Source: Zhongshania sp. (GTDB lineage Bacteria > Pseudomonadota > Gammaproteobacteria > Pseudomonadales > Spongiibacteraceae). From it: 64,000 nucleotides of DNA. The number at the start of each line of letters is the position of its first letter. The stretch's first letter is position 1. The notes below the pieces were generated by a model. The model ran no database searches. It was not told the origin of the DNA and saw only the letters and a program-made list of their open reading frames with translations. The DNA lies in NCBI RefSeq assembly GCF_029212375.1, contig NZ_JARGNU010000017.1:1-64000 (forward strand), given 5' to 3'. Positions 60,431-64,000 of the stretch are shown here, piece after piece. A program made the translations under genes and the position numbers.

Positions 60431-60542
60431 CTGGCCGCCAATAAGGGGCGGCAGAGCTTATATTCAATCAGCCAATAACACCCAACAGAGGTTTGTCTGC
60501 CCTTGTGTTGGCCTTTATGTTTCACTGGCCGCCAATAAGGGG
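60431..60542. repeat. 19-bp direct repeat flanking the spacer before the UPF0316 gene
   Basis: CTGGCCGCCAATAAGGGGC occurs at 60431-60449 and again at 60525-60543, 94 bases apart. The second copy supplies the AAGGGG ribosome site of the next gene. Nothing else is seen in between. Confidence 0.75.
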
Positions 60543-60550
60543 CTGTCTGT

Positions 60551-61099
60551 ATGGAATTGTTGCTAGATTATCCGTTTTTATTAGTACCGCTAATCTTTTT
60601 TGCTCGGGTTGCGGATGTTTCACTTGGTACGTTTCGCACCATCGTTGTGTTTCGCGGCAATAAACTACTGGCCTCTGTTATCGGCTTTTTCGAAATTATG
60701 ATTTGGTTAATCGCAGCCAGACAGGTGCTAACCAACCTCGACCACTGGTATTTAGCGGTGGCCTACGCCAGCGGATTTGCAGTGGGCAATTACGTTGGTA
60801 TTACAATTGAAAGCCGCTTTGCAATTGGCAAAGAACTTATTCGCTGCATTTCTTTTAACCGCGATGTGCTGGCCGATAAACTGCGTGAAACCGGCTATAA
60901 AGTGGTTTCTGTAGACGGCGATATGGGCGAAGCCCACCCCATTGAAGTGCTGTTTATTATCGAAAAGCGGCGCAATATCGGCGAGCTAATTAGCTTAATT
61001 ACCACCCTGGACCCGAGTGCAGTCTATTCAGTGTCTGATATTAAAAGCGTGTACGACGGCCCCGATCTTTTACCGCGACATCGGTTTTTAAGGAAATAG
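60551..61099 (+). CDS. UPF0316/DUF2179 family membrane protein
   Basis: A 182-residue protein with three N-terminal membrane helices (about 5-25, 40-60, 68-88; FFARVADVSLGTFRTIVVFRGNK is characteristic) and a C-terminal cytoplasmic DUF2179 domain (about 95-175; HPIEVLFIIEKRRNIGELISLI). Family function is unknown. The start follows AAGGGG supplied by the second copy of a 19-bp direct repeat. Confidence 0.9.
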   Translation: MELLLDYPFLLVPLIFFARVADVSLGTFRTIVVFRGNKLLASVIGFFEIMIWLIAARQVLTNLDHWYLAVAYASGFAVGNYVGITIESRFAIGKELIRCISFNRDVLADKLRETGYKVVSVDGDMGEAHPIEVLFIIEKRRNIGELISLITTLDPSAVYSVSDIKSVYDGPDLLPRHRFLRK

Positions 61100-61209
61100 C
61101 GGGCTGTGGTTTGGTGATAAGCGCATTCGGTCAGATCTTGGAATTATGGTAGTTTAGGCAATTATAAAAATACACCTGAGCCCGGTGGCTCTTTAGGAAC
61201 ACATCACCC

Positions 61210-61935
61210 ATGCCCCTGTTATTTGAAGAAATTGATAGCCAAGCCTCCGCCCTAGGTGAAATCTCGCTGCGCAGACGGCGTATGCCCGCCTTTGGCGATC
61301 GGGATATTTATGAGGTTAAGCTAGGCGACGAATTTTTAATGTCGAGCATGTTTGTCGATGCCGAAGAGGCCTTGTCTACCCTCGGTTTAGCGGCAACTCA
61401 GGGCGATACGCTGAGTGTGGTTGTGGGCGGTTTGGGGCTAGGCTACACCGCCGTTGCGGCGCTCAAAGACACACGAATTAGCGAGCTACTGGTGGTCGAT
61501 GCCTTAAACACGGTTATTGGCTGGCATAAAGATGAGCTAGTGCCGCTGGGGAAAATACTCAACGCCGACGCCCGCAACCGCTATGTGTTGGGCAGTTTTT
61601 TTGAGCTTGCTACTGCGCCGAGCACGGGCTTTGATCCCCAGTGCGCAGGCAAAAAGTTTGATGCCATCCTACTCGACATCGACCACTCCCCCACCGAATT
61701 CTTAAACCCCGCCAACGCAGGCTTTTACACCACCGAAAATCTCGCACTTATGGCGGCGCAACTTAAACCAAATGGCGTGTTTGCCATGTGGTCGCAAAAC
61801 CTGCCGGAACCAAGCTTTGAGGCTTTGCTGCAAACCGTGTTTAAGAGCGTCACCTCCCACGTGGTATCGTTTTACAATCCCTTTCAAAATGGCGAATCGA
61901 CTAATTCGGTGTATGTTTGCGTAAAGACTGAGTAA
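61210..61935 (+). CDS. Spermidine synthase-like methyltransferase-fold protein
   Basis: A 241-residue Rossmann-fold protein related to spermidine synthases. VVVGGLGLGYTAVAAL (about 71-86) is the nucleotide-binding glycine loop, ELLVVDALNTVIGWHK the acidic strand, and KFDAILLDIDHSPTEFL the active-site strand. The N-terminal beta domain is short and the polyamine-gatekeeper residues are not obvious, so true polyamine synthesis is doubtful. It stands alone before the repeat-filled spacer. Confidence 0.85.
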   Translation: MPLLFEEIDSQASALGEISLRRRRMPAFGDRDIYEVKLGDEFLMSSMFVDAEEALSTLGLAATQGDTLSVVVGGLGLGYTAVAALKDTRISELLVVDALNTVIGWHKDELVPLGKILNADARNRYVLGSFFELATAPSTGFDPQCAGKKFDAILLDIDHSPTEFLNPANAGFYTTENLALMAAQLKPNGVFAMWSQNLPEPSFEALLQTVFKSVTSHVVSFYNPFQNGESTNSVYVCVKTE

Positions 61936-62458
61936 CGGTGACCACCTTGCGCTTGGCAAGCCACTGCCGCTGAACCAATGCACGGTTACCCCACCAGATA
62001 CCGGATCAAGTCCGGTATGACGTATAAGAGCCAGTCATTTTGAACGGCCTGCACTGTCGCTCTGAATCCTCCACACCGTCATTCTGAACTTGATTCAGAA
62101 TCTGTTGCTACGAAGCGGCCAAGCTGCCGCCCGATGAGATACCGGATCAAGTCCGGCATGACGTAAAGAACCAGTCCCTCTAACCGCCCGCATCGTCATT
62201 CTGAACTCCCAACACCGTCATTCTGAACTTGATTCAGAATCTGCTGCTACGAAGTGGCCAAGCTGCCGCCCGATGAGATACCGGATCAAGTCCGGTATGA
62301 CGTATAAGAGCCAGTCATTCTGAACTTGATTCAGAATCTGCCGCTACGAAGCGACTAAGGTGCCGCAGGGATGCAACCAACGCCGAAATATTTCGTCTGA
62401 GCATGCGGTAGACTAACCTTGATCTTTGCCTGTATAAAAAGAGCGGGCAAAACTCACT
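61936..62458. other. Repeat-filled intergenic region
   Basis: About 520 bases without a gene, made mostly of two palindromic repeat families interleaved (annotated separately). The last 110 bases before mtgA are free of them and should hold its promoter. Confidence 0.8.
61996..62345. repeat. Composite palindromic intergenic repeat array (families A and B)
   Basis: Family A (GATACCGGATCAAGTCCGGT, hairpin ACCGGA/TCCGGT) occurs at 61997, 62136 and 62275. Family B (TCATTCTGAACTTGATTCAG and six more bases, hairpin ATTCTGAA/TTCAGAAT) occurs at 62079, 62218 and 62315, with partial copies near 62034 and 62195. A B-linker-A unit of about 100 bases (62075-62176) is repeated at 62214-62316 with few changes. 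Similar hairpin repeats are common in proteobacterial spacers. Confidence 0.9.
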
Positions 62459-63166
62459 ATGGAACTTGGCATGGCGAATAAAAATACAATAGCGCGAATG
62501 CTCTGGCGTGCGGCGCTTATATTGCTGTTACTGAGCGTTGCGCTGGTATTGCCGTTTCGGTGGATCAACCCACCAGTCAGCATGGTAATGCTCGAGCGCA
62601 GCTGGCAGCAGCGCGGTAACGACTACCACTTAAAAAAGCAGTGGCTCAGTTGGGATGAGATACCCCGCCATGCGGCGTTGGCAGCGGTGGTTTCTGAGGA
62701 TCAGAATTTTCCAAAGCATTATGGTTTCGATTTAAAAGCTATTCAAAAAGCCTTTGCTGAGCGTGAGCGCCGAGGCAGCCTGCGCGGCGCGAGCACCATT
62801 AGCCAGCAGGTCGCACGCAATATGTATCTGTGGACGGGTCGCAGTTGGGTACGCAAAGGTTTGGAAGTGTGGTTCACTGGTCTGGTGGAGCTGTGCTGGC
62901 CCAAACAGCGTATTTTAGAAGTCTATTTAAACATCGCGGAATGGGGCGACGGCGTGTTTGGACTAGCCGCGGCCAGTCGCTACCACTTTAGAATTCCCGC
63001 TGCGCAATTGTCTAGCTGGCAGTCAGCACTGCTGGCTTCTAGCCTGCCCAGCCCTCTCAATTACAAACCCGCCGCGCCAGCACCACATTTAGTTGAGCGC
63101 GCCAACTGGAACCTCACTCAGCAGCGCAGATTAGGCGGGCGCGCCTGGTTGGCCAGTTTGGAGTAG
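62459..63166 (+). CDS. mtgA: Monofunctional peptidoglycan glycosyltransferase MtgA
   Basis: A 235-residue inner-membrane GT51 enzyme that polymerises lipid II. One N-terminal membrane helix (about 15-31) precedes the catalytic domain with motif EDQNFPKHYGFD (catalytic Glu), RGASTISQQVARNMYLW, RKGLEVWFTGLVELCWPKQRILEVYLNIAEWGDGVFG in pieces, and ASRYHF. Length fits E. coli MtgA (about 240). An ATG four codons in is an alternative start. It converges with the redoxin gene. Confidence 0.95.
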   Translation: MELGMANKNTIARMLWRAALILLLLSVALVLPFRWINPPVSMVMLERSWQQRGNDYHLKKQWLSWDEIPRHAALAAVVSEDQNFPKHYGFDLKAIQKAFAERERRGSLRGASTISQQVARNMYLWTGRSWVRKGLEVWFTGLVELCWPKQRILEVYLNIAEWGDGVFGLAAASRYHFRIPAAQLSSWQSALLASSLPSPLNYKPAAPAPHLVERANWNLTQQRRLGGRAWLASLE

Positions 63167-63190
63167 TTTAGCGCAGGCGAATGCTCGGCC

Positions 63191-63991
63191 TTATATCCCC
63201 GCTTGGGTAAACACGCGCAAAAATATTTCTGGCTCGGGTCGTACCCGATAATTATCGGTAAGATCGGCAAACAATATCTTGCCCGCGGCATCGGTCATGA
63301 TAACCGTGGGCATGACGGTGTCGCTGTCATAACCTAAAACTTCCATTCCTAATGGCAAGCCATTGGCCGCGGCAATCCCTAGGCGCTTGGCCATTGCGTT
63401 ATCTGTATCTACCAAAAAGCGCATAGGTGCTTCAAAGCGCTGCGCCAAGTCGACGGTGTGGCTTTGCGGTTGAGGACTAACAAGCAAGATCTCTACGCCT
63501 TTTGCAGCTAGCTCTCGATACTGGCCGGCAATCTCTTTAATTTGCGCCATGCACAGTGGGCACCAGTTGCCGCGATAGAAAATCATGAGCAGCGGTTTAT
63601 TCAATTCACGCGTTTTAATCGACGTGCCAGCGGCGTTAATAAATTCTAAGTTGGGCAGTGTTTGGCCAACACCGAGTAATTGATTGTGCCTGCCGCCAAA
63701 GCTGGAGTACCACCATTCGTACACAGCCGTTCCGATCACCCCTGCACCGAGTATCCATGCAAGCGGCTCGATAATAAGTGGCGACAACGCGGCGCCTAGC
63801 AATGTAATTAGCGTAATACCTAACACCGCTTTGGTCGCCATTTGGGTGCGAGCGACATTAAACGTAAACACCCAAGCAAAAAAGGATAATGGCGCAAGCA
63901 TGCACAGCAGAGCCCAATACCAAGCAAGCGCATGGGGATTTTGGTAAATTGCCCAGCCACTGCGCACCGCGCCCACCACGAGCAAGCTCAT
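63191..63991 (-). CDS. Membrane-anchored AhpC/TSA-type redoxin (5' end possibly outside window)
   Basis: At least 266 residues. Three or four N-terminal membrane segments (about 20-40, 52-68, 70-88) precede a periplasmic or cytoplasmic thioredoxin-fold domain (about 100-266) with the motif FYRGNWCPLCMAQIKEI, where CPLC is the redox pair, and VLGYDSDTVMPTVIMTDAAGKI. It resembles AhpC/TSA redoxins of the peroxiredoxin-like group. ATG 63991 could be the start, but the frame stays open through the last nine bases of the window. Confidence 0.85.
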   Translation of the reverse strand: MSLLVVGAVRSGWAIYQNPHALAWYWALLCMLAPLSFFAWVFTFNVARTQMATKAVLGITLITLLGAALSPLIIEPLAWILGAGVIGTAVYEWWYSSFGGRHNQLLGVGQTLPNLEFINAAGTSIKTRELNKPLLMIFYRGNWCPLCMAQIKEIAGQYRELAAKGVEILLVSPQPQSHTVDLAQRFEAPMRFLVDTDNAMAKRLGIAAANGLPLGMEVLGYDSDTVMPTVIMTDAAGKILFADLTDNYRVRPEPEIFLRVFTQAGI

Positions 63992-64000
63992 CCACGCTGA

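Follow-up and report, generated by a model that had tools for sequence, protein, structure and literature searches.

CGTC-tagged REP heterodimers and their half-arm arrays in a Zhongshania genome

The intergenic hairpins of a Zhongshania sp. genome (RefSeq assembly GCF_029212375.1) are CGTC-tagged REPs of a CGTC-2-like kind, forming one dispersed family with covarying stems. They are joined at a fixed distance into head-to-head heterodimers, carry outer arrays of half-copies that decay outward, and have stems that differ between species. We lean towards regarding them as selfish hairpin dimers that are spread by some activity for which there is as yet no candidate gene, and that are multiplied locally by slippage.

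Six hairpins between two genes

The window analysed is a stretch of 64,000 nt (contig NZ_JARGNU010000017.1, positions 1 to 64,000). A scan of it at up to three mismatches gave six 25-nt palindromes, all at 61997–62338 (three of type A on the minus strand and three of type B on the plus strand), and none in 100 shuffled windows. They lie in a spacer (61936–62458) bounded by two genes on the same strand, one with no Pfam family and one with PF00912, which we take to be mtgA. The features are as follows.

61210..61935, plus strand: upstream gene; no Pfam family at E 0.001; ortholog 5′ of the same spacer in 7 relatives
61997..62022, minus strand: type A palindrome, ACCGGA/TCCGGT; CGTC-tagged; B partner lost
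62033..62076, plus strand: two degenerate 22-nt half-arm units (62033 and 62055), leading to the first B; from the sequence
62043..62304, plus strand: tandem duplication, 62043–62165 and 62182–62304; 123 nt, 89% identical, spacing 139
62077..62102, plus strand: type B palindrome, TCTGAA/TTCAGA; CGTC tag outward
62077..62163, unstranded: B-linker-A head-to-head heterodimer, copy 1, 87 bp; from pair analysis
62138..62163, minus strand: type A palindrome, GCCGGA/TCCGGT; 7 of 8 stem pairs Watson-Crick
62173..62215, plus strand: half-arm units leading to the second B; degenerate at 62173, then CGTCATTCTGAAC plus 9 nt at 62194–62215
62216..62241, plus strand: type B palindrome; from the palindrome scan
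62216..62302, unstranded: B-linker-A head-to-head heterodimer, copy 2, 87 bp; from pair analysis
62277..62302, minus strand: type A palindrome; from the palindrome scan
62313..62338, plus strand: type B palindrome, tag AGTC; A partner lost; linker-like sequence to about 62366
62459..63166, plus strand: downstream gene; PF00912 transglycosylase

Starting at the tag, the type B sequence reads CGTCATTCTGAA-CTTGA-TTCAGAATC and the type A sequence CGTCATACCGGA-CTTGA-TCCGGTATC; the two agree in tag, AT foot and loop but not in the six stem positions, which differ in both arms. Because B is oriented rightward and A leftward, each B-linker-A unit forms a head-to-head dimer whose tags face outward. A preliminary description of this DNA had reported alternating A and B hairpins and a B-linker-A unit occurring twice, and both observations were confirmed; the 123-nt direct repeat spans both of the 87-bp dimers. 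Linker-like sequence also runs from about 61958 ahead of the first A palindrome (match at 61958–62022). The unpaired tag at one end is CGTC in five of the six copies and AGTC in the sixth (62313), and the tail 3′ of the B copies in the window is CTG, with CCA or CAA in many other copies of the genome. Folding of the dimer DNA gives z-scores of −3.8 and −3.2. An Rfam scan of 60500–64000 returned no match up to E 1.

One dispersed family and its outer arrays

The repeats are dispersed rather than confined to this spacer, and the REP-like nature proposed for them holds. The source genome (G000; 3.80 Mb in 29 contigs) contains 122 copies at up to two mismatches (62 forward and 60 reverse), and the same pattern read backwards, our control, gave no match. 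This copy number is probably a lower bound, because the assembly is interrupted at the arrays, with REPs no more than about 200 bases from the starts of contigs C7, C10, C13, C15 and C27 and from the ends of C8, C14, C15 and C26, and with runs of N inside several arrays.

Twenty-one extracted loci of this genome hold 123 palindromes at up to three mismatches, 66 of them B, which is defined by the TCTGAA stem, and 57 A, whose stems are chiefly ACCGGA, GCTGGA and GCCGGA and mostly uniform inside one cluster. When palindromes within 70 nt of each other are paired, 92 of the 123 sit in 46 head-to-head pairs, every one an A + B heterodimer, with a start-to-start spacing of exactly 60 nt in 44 pairs and 61 nt in 2; the other pairs in this range are tail-to-tail (12) or head-to-tail (4). 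Two types of linker are found, TG.TGYTACGAAG..., mostly paired with ACCGG, and CA.TACCAC..., mostly paired with GCTGG and GCCGG.

All eight stem pairs are Watson-Crick in 108 of the 123 copies. For covariation we collected 25-mers with exact GTCAT, CTTGA and ATC, pairing not being required, from the REP loci retrieved for eight genomes, which yielded 222 matches, 35 of them distinct and 186 fully paired. Among the 35 distinct sequences, 87% of the variable stem positions pair, compared to 53% with shuffled partners (maximum 65% in 1000 trials). The loop varies as well, being CTTGA in 186 and CTCGA in 34 of 242 fully paired GTCAT...ATC frames from the eight genomes. A and B are one hairpin family differing by compensating stem changes within a shared frame, CGTC-AT-NNNNNN-CTTGA-NNNNNN-AT, and not the two families that had been described.

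Outside the dimers lie repeats absent from the preliminary description, half-arm units of about 22 nt that consist of the outer arm of the adjacent palindrome (12–13 nt) and a filler (9–10 nt), for instance CGTCATTCTGAAC followed by GCCCTACAT. In the window such units start at 62033, 62055 and 62173, which are degenerate, and at 62194. At least two units were found on the outer side of 31 of 100 palindromes in the source genome and on the inner side of 1 of 100 (shuffled, 0), and in the relatives on the outer side of 45 of 181 palindromes and the inner side of 2 (shuffled, 1). Counted over de-duplicated arrays, the 16 non-redundant arrays of the source genome with at least three units favour the first unit over the third as the nearer to the arm in 12 cases and never the reverse, with 4 ties (p 0.0002), and the 29 arrays of the relatives have the first unit nearer in 19, the third nearer in 5 and ties in 5 (p 0.003). 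Similarity to the arm decays outward, and the arrays therefore look youngest beside the hairpin. The half-arm sequence also tracks the species' own stem, with CCTCAAC units in the relative G009. Literature searches listed nothing on half-arm arrays, concerted evolution of REPs or orphan attI.

We class the hairpins as CGTC-2 type because of the CGTC tag, the AT-starting 8-bp stem, the 5-nt loop, the head-to-head heterodimers and the lack, in the PF01797 searches, of a linked transposase gene, all of which match CGTC-2 as given in the sections covered of the survey of CGTC REPs by Di Nocera, De Gregorio and Rocco (2013; PMC3733652). These describe AT-footed stems of 8–9 bp with loops of 4–5 nt, head-to-head dimers among which heterodimers predominate in CGTC-2, and CGTC-2 criteria that include the tag variants TGTC and CCTC and a short unpaired tail, mostly CCA. 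There the CGTC REPs have no dedicated transposase gene, and the manner of their spread was left open in 2013. The same sections propose that heterodimers escape removal by SbcCD, an idea with which the strict heterodimers seen here appear compatible. By contrast, clusters are said there to be rare outside Neisseria and Wolbachia, whereas they are common here, and the sections covered mention neither the half-arm arrays and their polarity nor the fixed 60-nt register, nor stems that vary from species to species where REP-bearing neighbourhoods are shared; the text covered uses none of the words "half", "concerted" and "orthologous".

Other known elements differ further. Neisseria dRS3 and Rickettsia RPE-6 (both CGTC-1) and RPE-4 (CGTC-4) belong to the same superfamily and are, by description in the parts of PMC3733652 covered, other CGTC families by stem and loop; the Neisseria elements build large mosaics. 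The E. coli BIMEs, as that paper describes them in those parts, are likewise alternating REPs clustered between genes, but with another tag, stem and loop, whereas half-arm arrays lie outside the dimers here. REPINs, in the part of PMC3116915 covered, resemble these dimers in that an inverted REP pair is the likely spreading unit, but they are linked to a RAYT and have a GTAG-type tag, whereas the tag here is CGTC, the partners have different stems, and no RAYT gene flanked by the repeats was found.

Relatives and genomic neighbourhoods

At up to two mismatches, 10 of 17 other genomes of the genus have matches and 7 have none, as is also the case for three genomes of another genus. The stems differ between species: CCTCAA occurs in G009 and G017, CCCCAA in G005, G010 and G017, and GCCGGA in G004 and G007, which also have TCTGAA as in the source genome. 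By eye, the dimer partner in G005, G009 and G017 has another loop, and searches with CTTGA miss these partners because of it. Of the 391 genomes of the order, 70 carry one or more exact matches to the constant parts and 21 carry at least seven; the source genome is highest with 101.

An mtgA ortholog was found in 13 genomes, and the spacer comparison covers the 8 that keep the same upstream gene, the 5 with a different one being excluded. Inspection by eye finds REPs of different kinds in five of these spacers (G000, G004, G007, G008 and G017) and none in the other three (G005, G006 and G009); no target duplication was resolved by this comparison, the intergenic DNA aligning too poorly. Among 98 clusters from eight genomes there are 80 cross-genome pairs with a common flanking gene, 51 on the same side and 29 on the other, and 19 pairs have both flanks in common; 35 of the 51 same-side pairs have no stem in common. 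Since 29 of the 80 lie on the other side, part of this is sharing of neighbourhoods and not of exact spacers. Fourteen of the 30 clusters in the source genome have a same-side partner, and 9 of these have a partner with no common stem; the match of L057 comes from the integron leader, and those of L054 and L059 are to a single gene family. Nine same-side pairs fall between G000 and G010, where a rough chance expectation assuming 3,500 genes is below one. The shared neighbourhoods are consistent alike with inheritance and with repeated hits.

Two lone dimers gave no clean junction. The one at L048 (G000:C7:69140) marks a rearrangement junction, its flanking genes being separated by 26–48 kb in G004, G007 and G010 and placed on different contigs in G009, and no clean empty site was found for it; for L047 the left flank alone was found in relatives. 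A scan of genome contigs with the B-A dimer pattern, from which near relatives may be left out, gave two other contigs, in metagenome-assembled genomes (MAGs) labelled Helicobacteraceae and Bdellovibrionales. Each carries a lone head-to-head heterodimer in which a shorter linker joins the same B to a TCCGGA partner (L032:1737–1810; L033:3191–3271).

A leader of about 250 bp beside an integron integrase gene (attI region; G000:C24; L189:4822–5081) recurs nearly full length at five other places in the source genome (L043, L052, L057, L030 and L049), where intI is missing and the cassette-like genes that follow differ. A B-type REP lies upstream in five of these five, in at least four of five in G007 (L159, L160, L161 and L140; one B degenerate) and in at least one of three in G004 (L163); the leaders examined in other genomes are without CTTGA REPs. 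A partial attI leader copy also lies downstream of a lone B repeat at L055 (G000:C18), and the integron region holds a group II intron reverse transcriptase/maturase frame (L189:6121–7452; PF00078, PF08388). We rejected the integron as the driver of this spread: G006, G008, G009, G010, G013, G014, G016 and G017 have leaders with no CTTGA palindrome over the 400 nt ahead of them, and most REP clusters of the source genome have no leader.

Explanations of the spread

If the dimers are selfish, they would enter permissive spacers as one unit, as single-stranded hairpins handled by some activity that has no candidate gene so far. Replication slippage or template switching at the foot of the hairpin would then multiply them locally, giving the 139-bp duplication and the half-arm units of about 22 nt, the newest beside the hairpin, and homogenisation or replacement may alter stems genome-wide. 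Host function would not be needed, effects at transcript ends being side effects. Against this reading stand the lack of a mobiliser in the PF01797 searches and of a clean empty site with target duplication, the shared neighbourhoods, which fit old loci equally, the 5 of 29 arrays in relatives that are reversed in polarity, and the chance that the polarity stems partly from selection on the hairpin-adjacent unit. The Y1 sequences close to REPs also count against it: the source genome has a truncated 35-aa fragment at a distance of 1.9 kb from one REP cluster (L049:6546–6650; tblastn of the G004 Y1 frame against the fetched loci), and G004 has an intact Y1 gene 3.1 kb from one of its clusters.

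The preliminary description suggested spread by an outside transposase, for example a RAYT. That REPIN-like elements are moved, now or until recently, by a RAYT or another Y1 transposase gains from the likeness of head-to-head dimers with outward tags to REPINs, from these neighbouring sequences and from a decayed Y1 gene in the source genome, and we hold it to be quite improbable. The transposase search used the PF01797 (Y1_Tnp) profile alone and the palindrome test the CTTGA loop alone; open reading frames of at least 110 aa in 11 loci of the source genome were inspected by eye only. The only PF01797 match of the source genome is a 27-bit fragment with three internal stop codons (L031:1501–1740), and neither it nor the 35-aa fragment has a CTTGA palindrome within 1.5 kb. 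In the family, 3 of 8 REP-rich genomes (at least seven matches; G017 is 84% complete, and the decayed copy of the source genome is included) have a PF01797 match, compared to 11 of 13 others; G005, G007, G009 and G010, which are REP-rich and 99–100% complete, have none. Across the order, in a hand-picked set from the same families, a match is present in 10 of 14 genomes rich in REPs and in 18 of 27 that have none. No CTTGA palindrome lies within about 1.5 kb at any of 20 Y1 loci in the family or 30 in the 41-genome set (10 of these 30 from REP-rich genomes), and the tag is CGTC, not GTAG. The motif GGGGWSAS, which the sections covered of PMC3733652 place in repeats flanking other Y1 genes, occurs within 700 nt of 9 of the 20 family loci, a count made without a control. 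A RAYT as the spreader is therefore not supported, the source genome having decayed Y1 remnants only and four REP-rich relatives no match; the wider notion of an outside transposase may still hold, the PF01797 search having given no candidate.

The 80 flank-sharing pairs, with 51 on the same side (35 of them without a common stem) and 19 sharing both flanks, are what would be expected of old, immobile ancestral loci whose stems became uniform within a genome as its copies recombined (concerted evolution). We think this unlikely, though not negligibly so, given that the mtgA spacer is REP-free in three of eight genomes, that 7 of 17 other genomes of the genus lack a match at up to two mismatches, and that MAGs from other phyla contain lone dimers. 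Short repeats are also poor substrates for recombination. A host function under selection, with hairpins at transcript ends protecting mRNA, stopping transcription or binding gyrase, could draw on the placement of the 30 clusters of the source genome (11 in tandem, 6 in convergent and 4 in divergent gene spacers and 9 at locus edges; heuristic gene calls, by which four clusters overlap open frames). We judge it very improbable: promoter and terminator scans of the spacer found none, with no intrinsic-terminator match, the RNA fold of the whole cluster has a z-score of only −2.2, and presence is patchy, 21 of the order's 391 genomes having at least seven copies.

A bolder reading is that CGTC REPs spread and evolve without a transposase of their own, that replication writes half-copies in one direction, so that an outer array would be a dated record of the earlier arms of its locus, and that dimers would jump by single-stranded DNA template switching during replication. 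This we offer as a long shot.

The genus provides a tractable set for these questions: copy numbers run from 0 to more than 100 among related species, stems vary from one species to another, four near-complete genomes are REP-rich and lack a Y1_Tnp match, and the half-arm arrays show which way growth runs. The evidence speaks against a RAYT, and models of slippage and of concerted evolution become testable.
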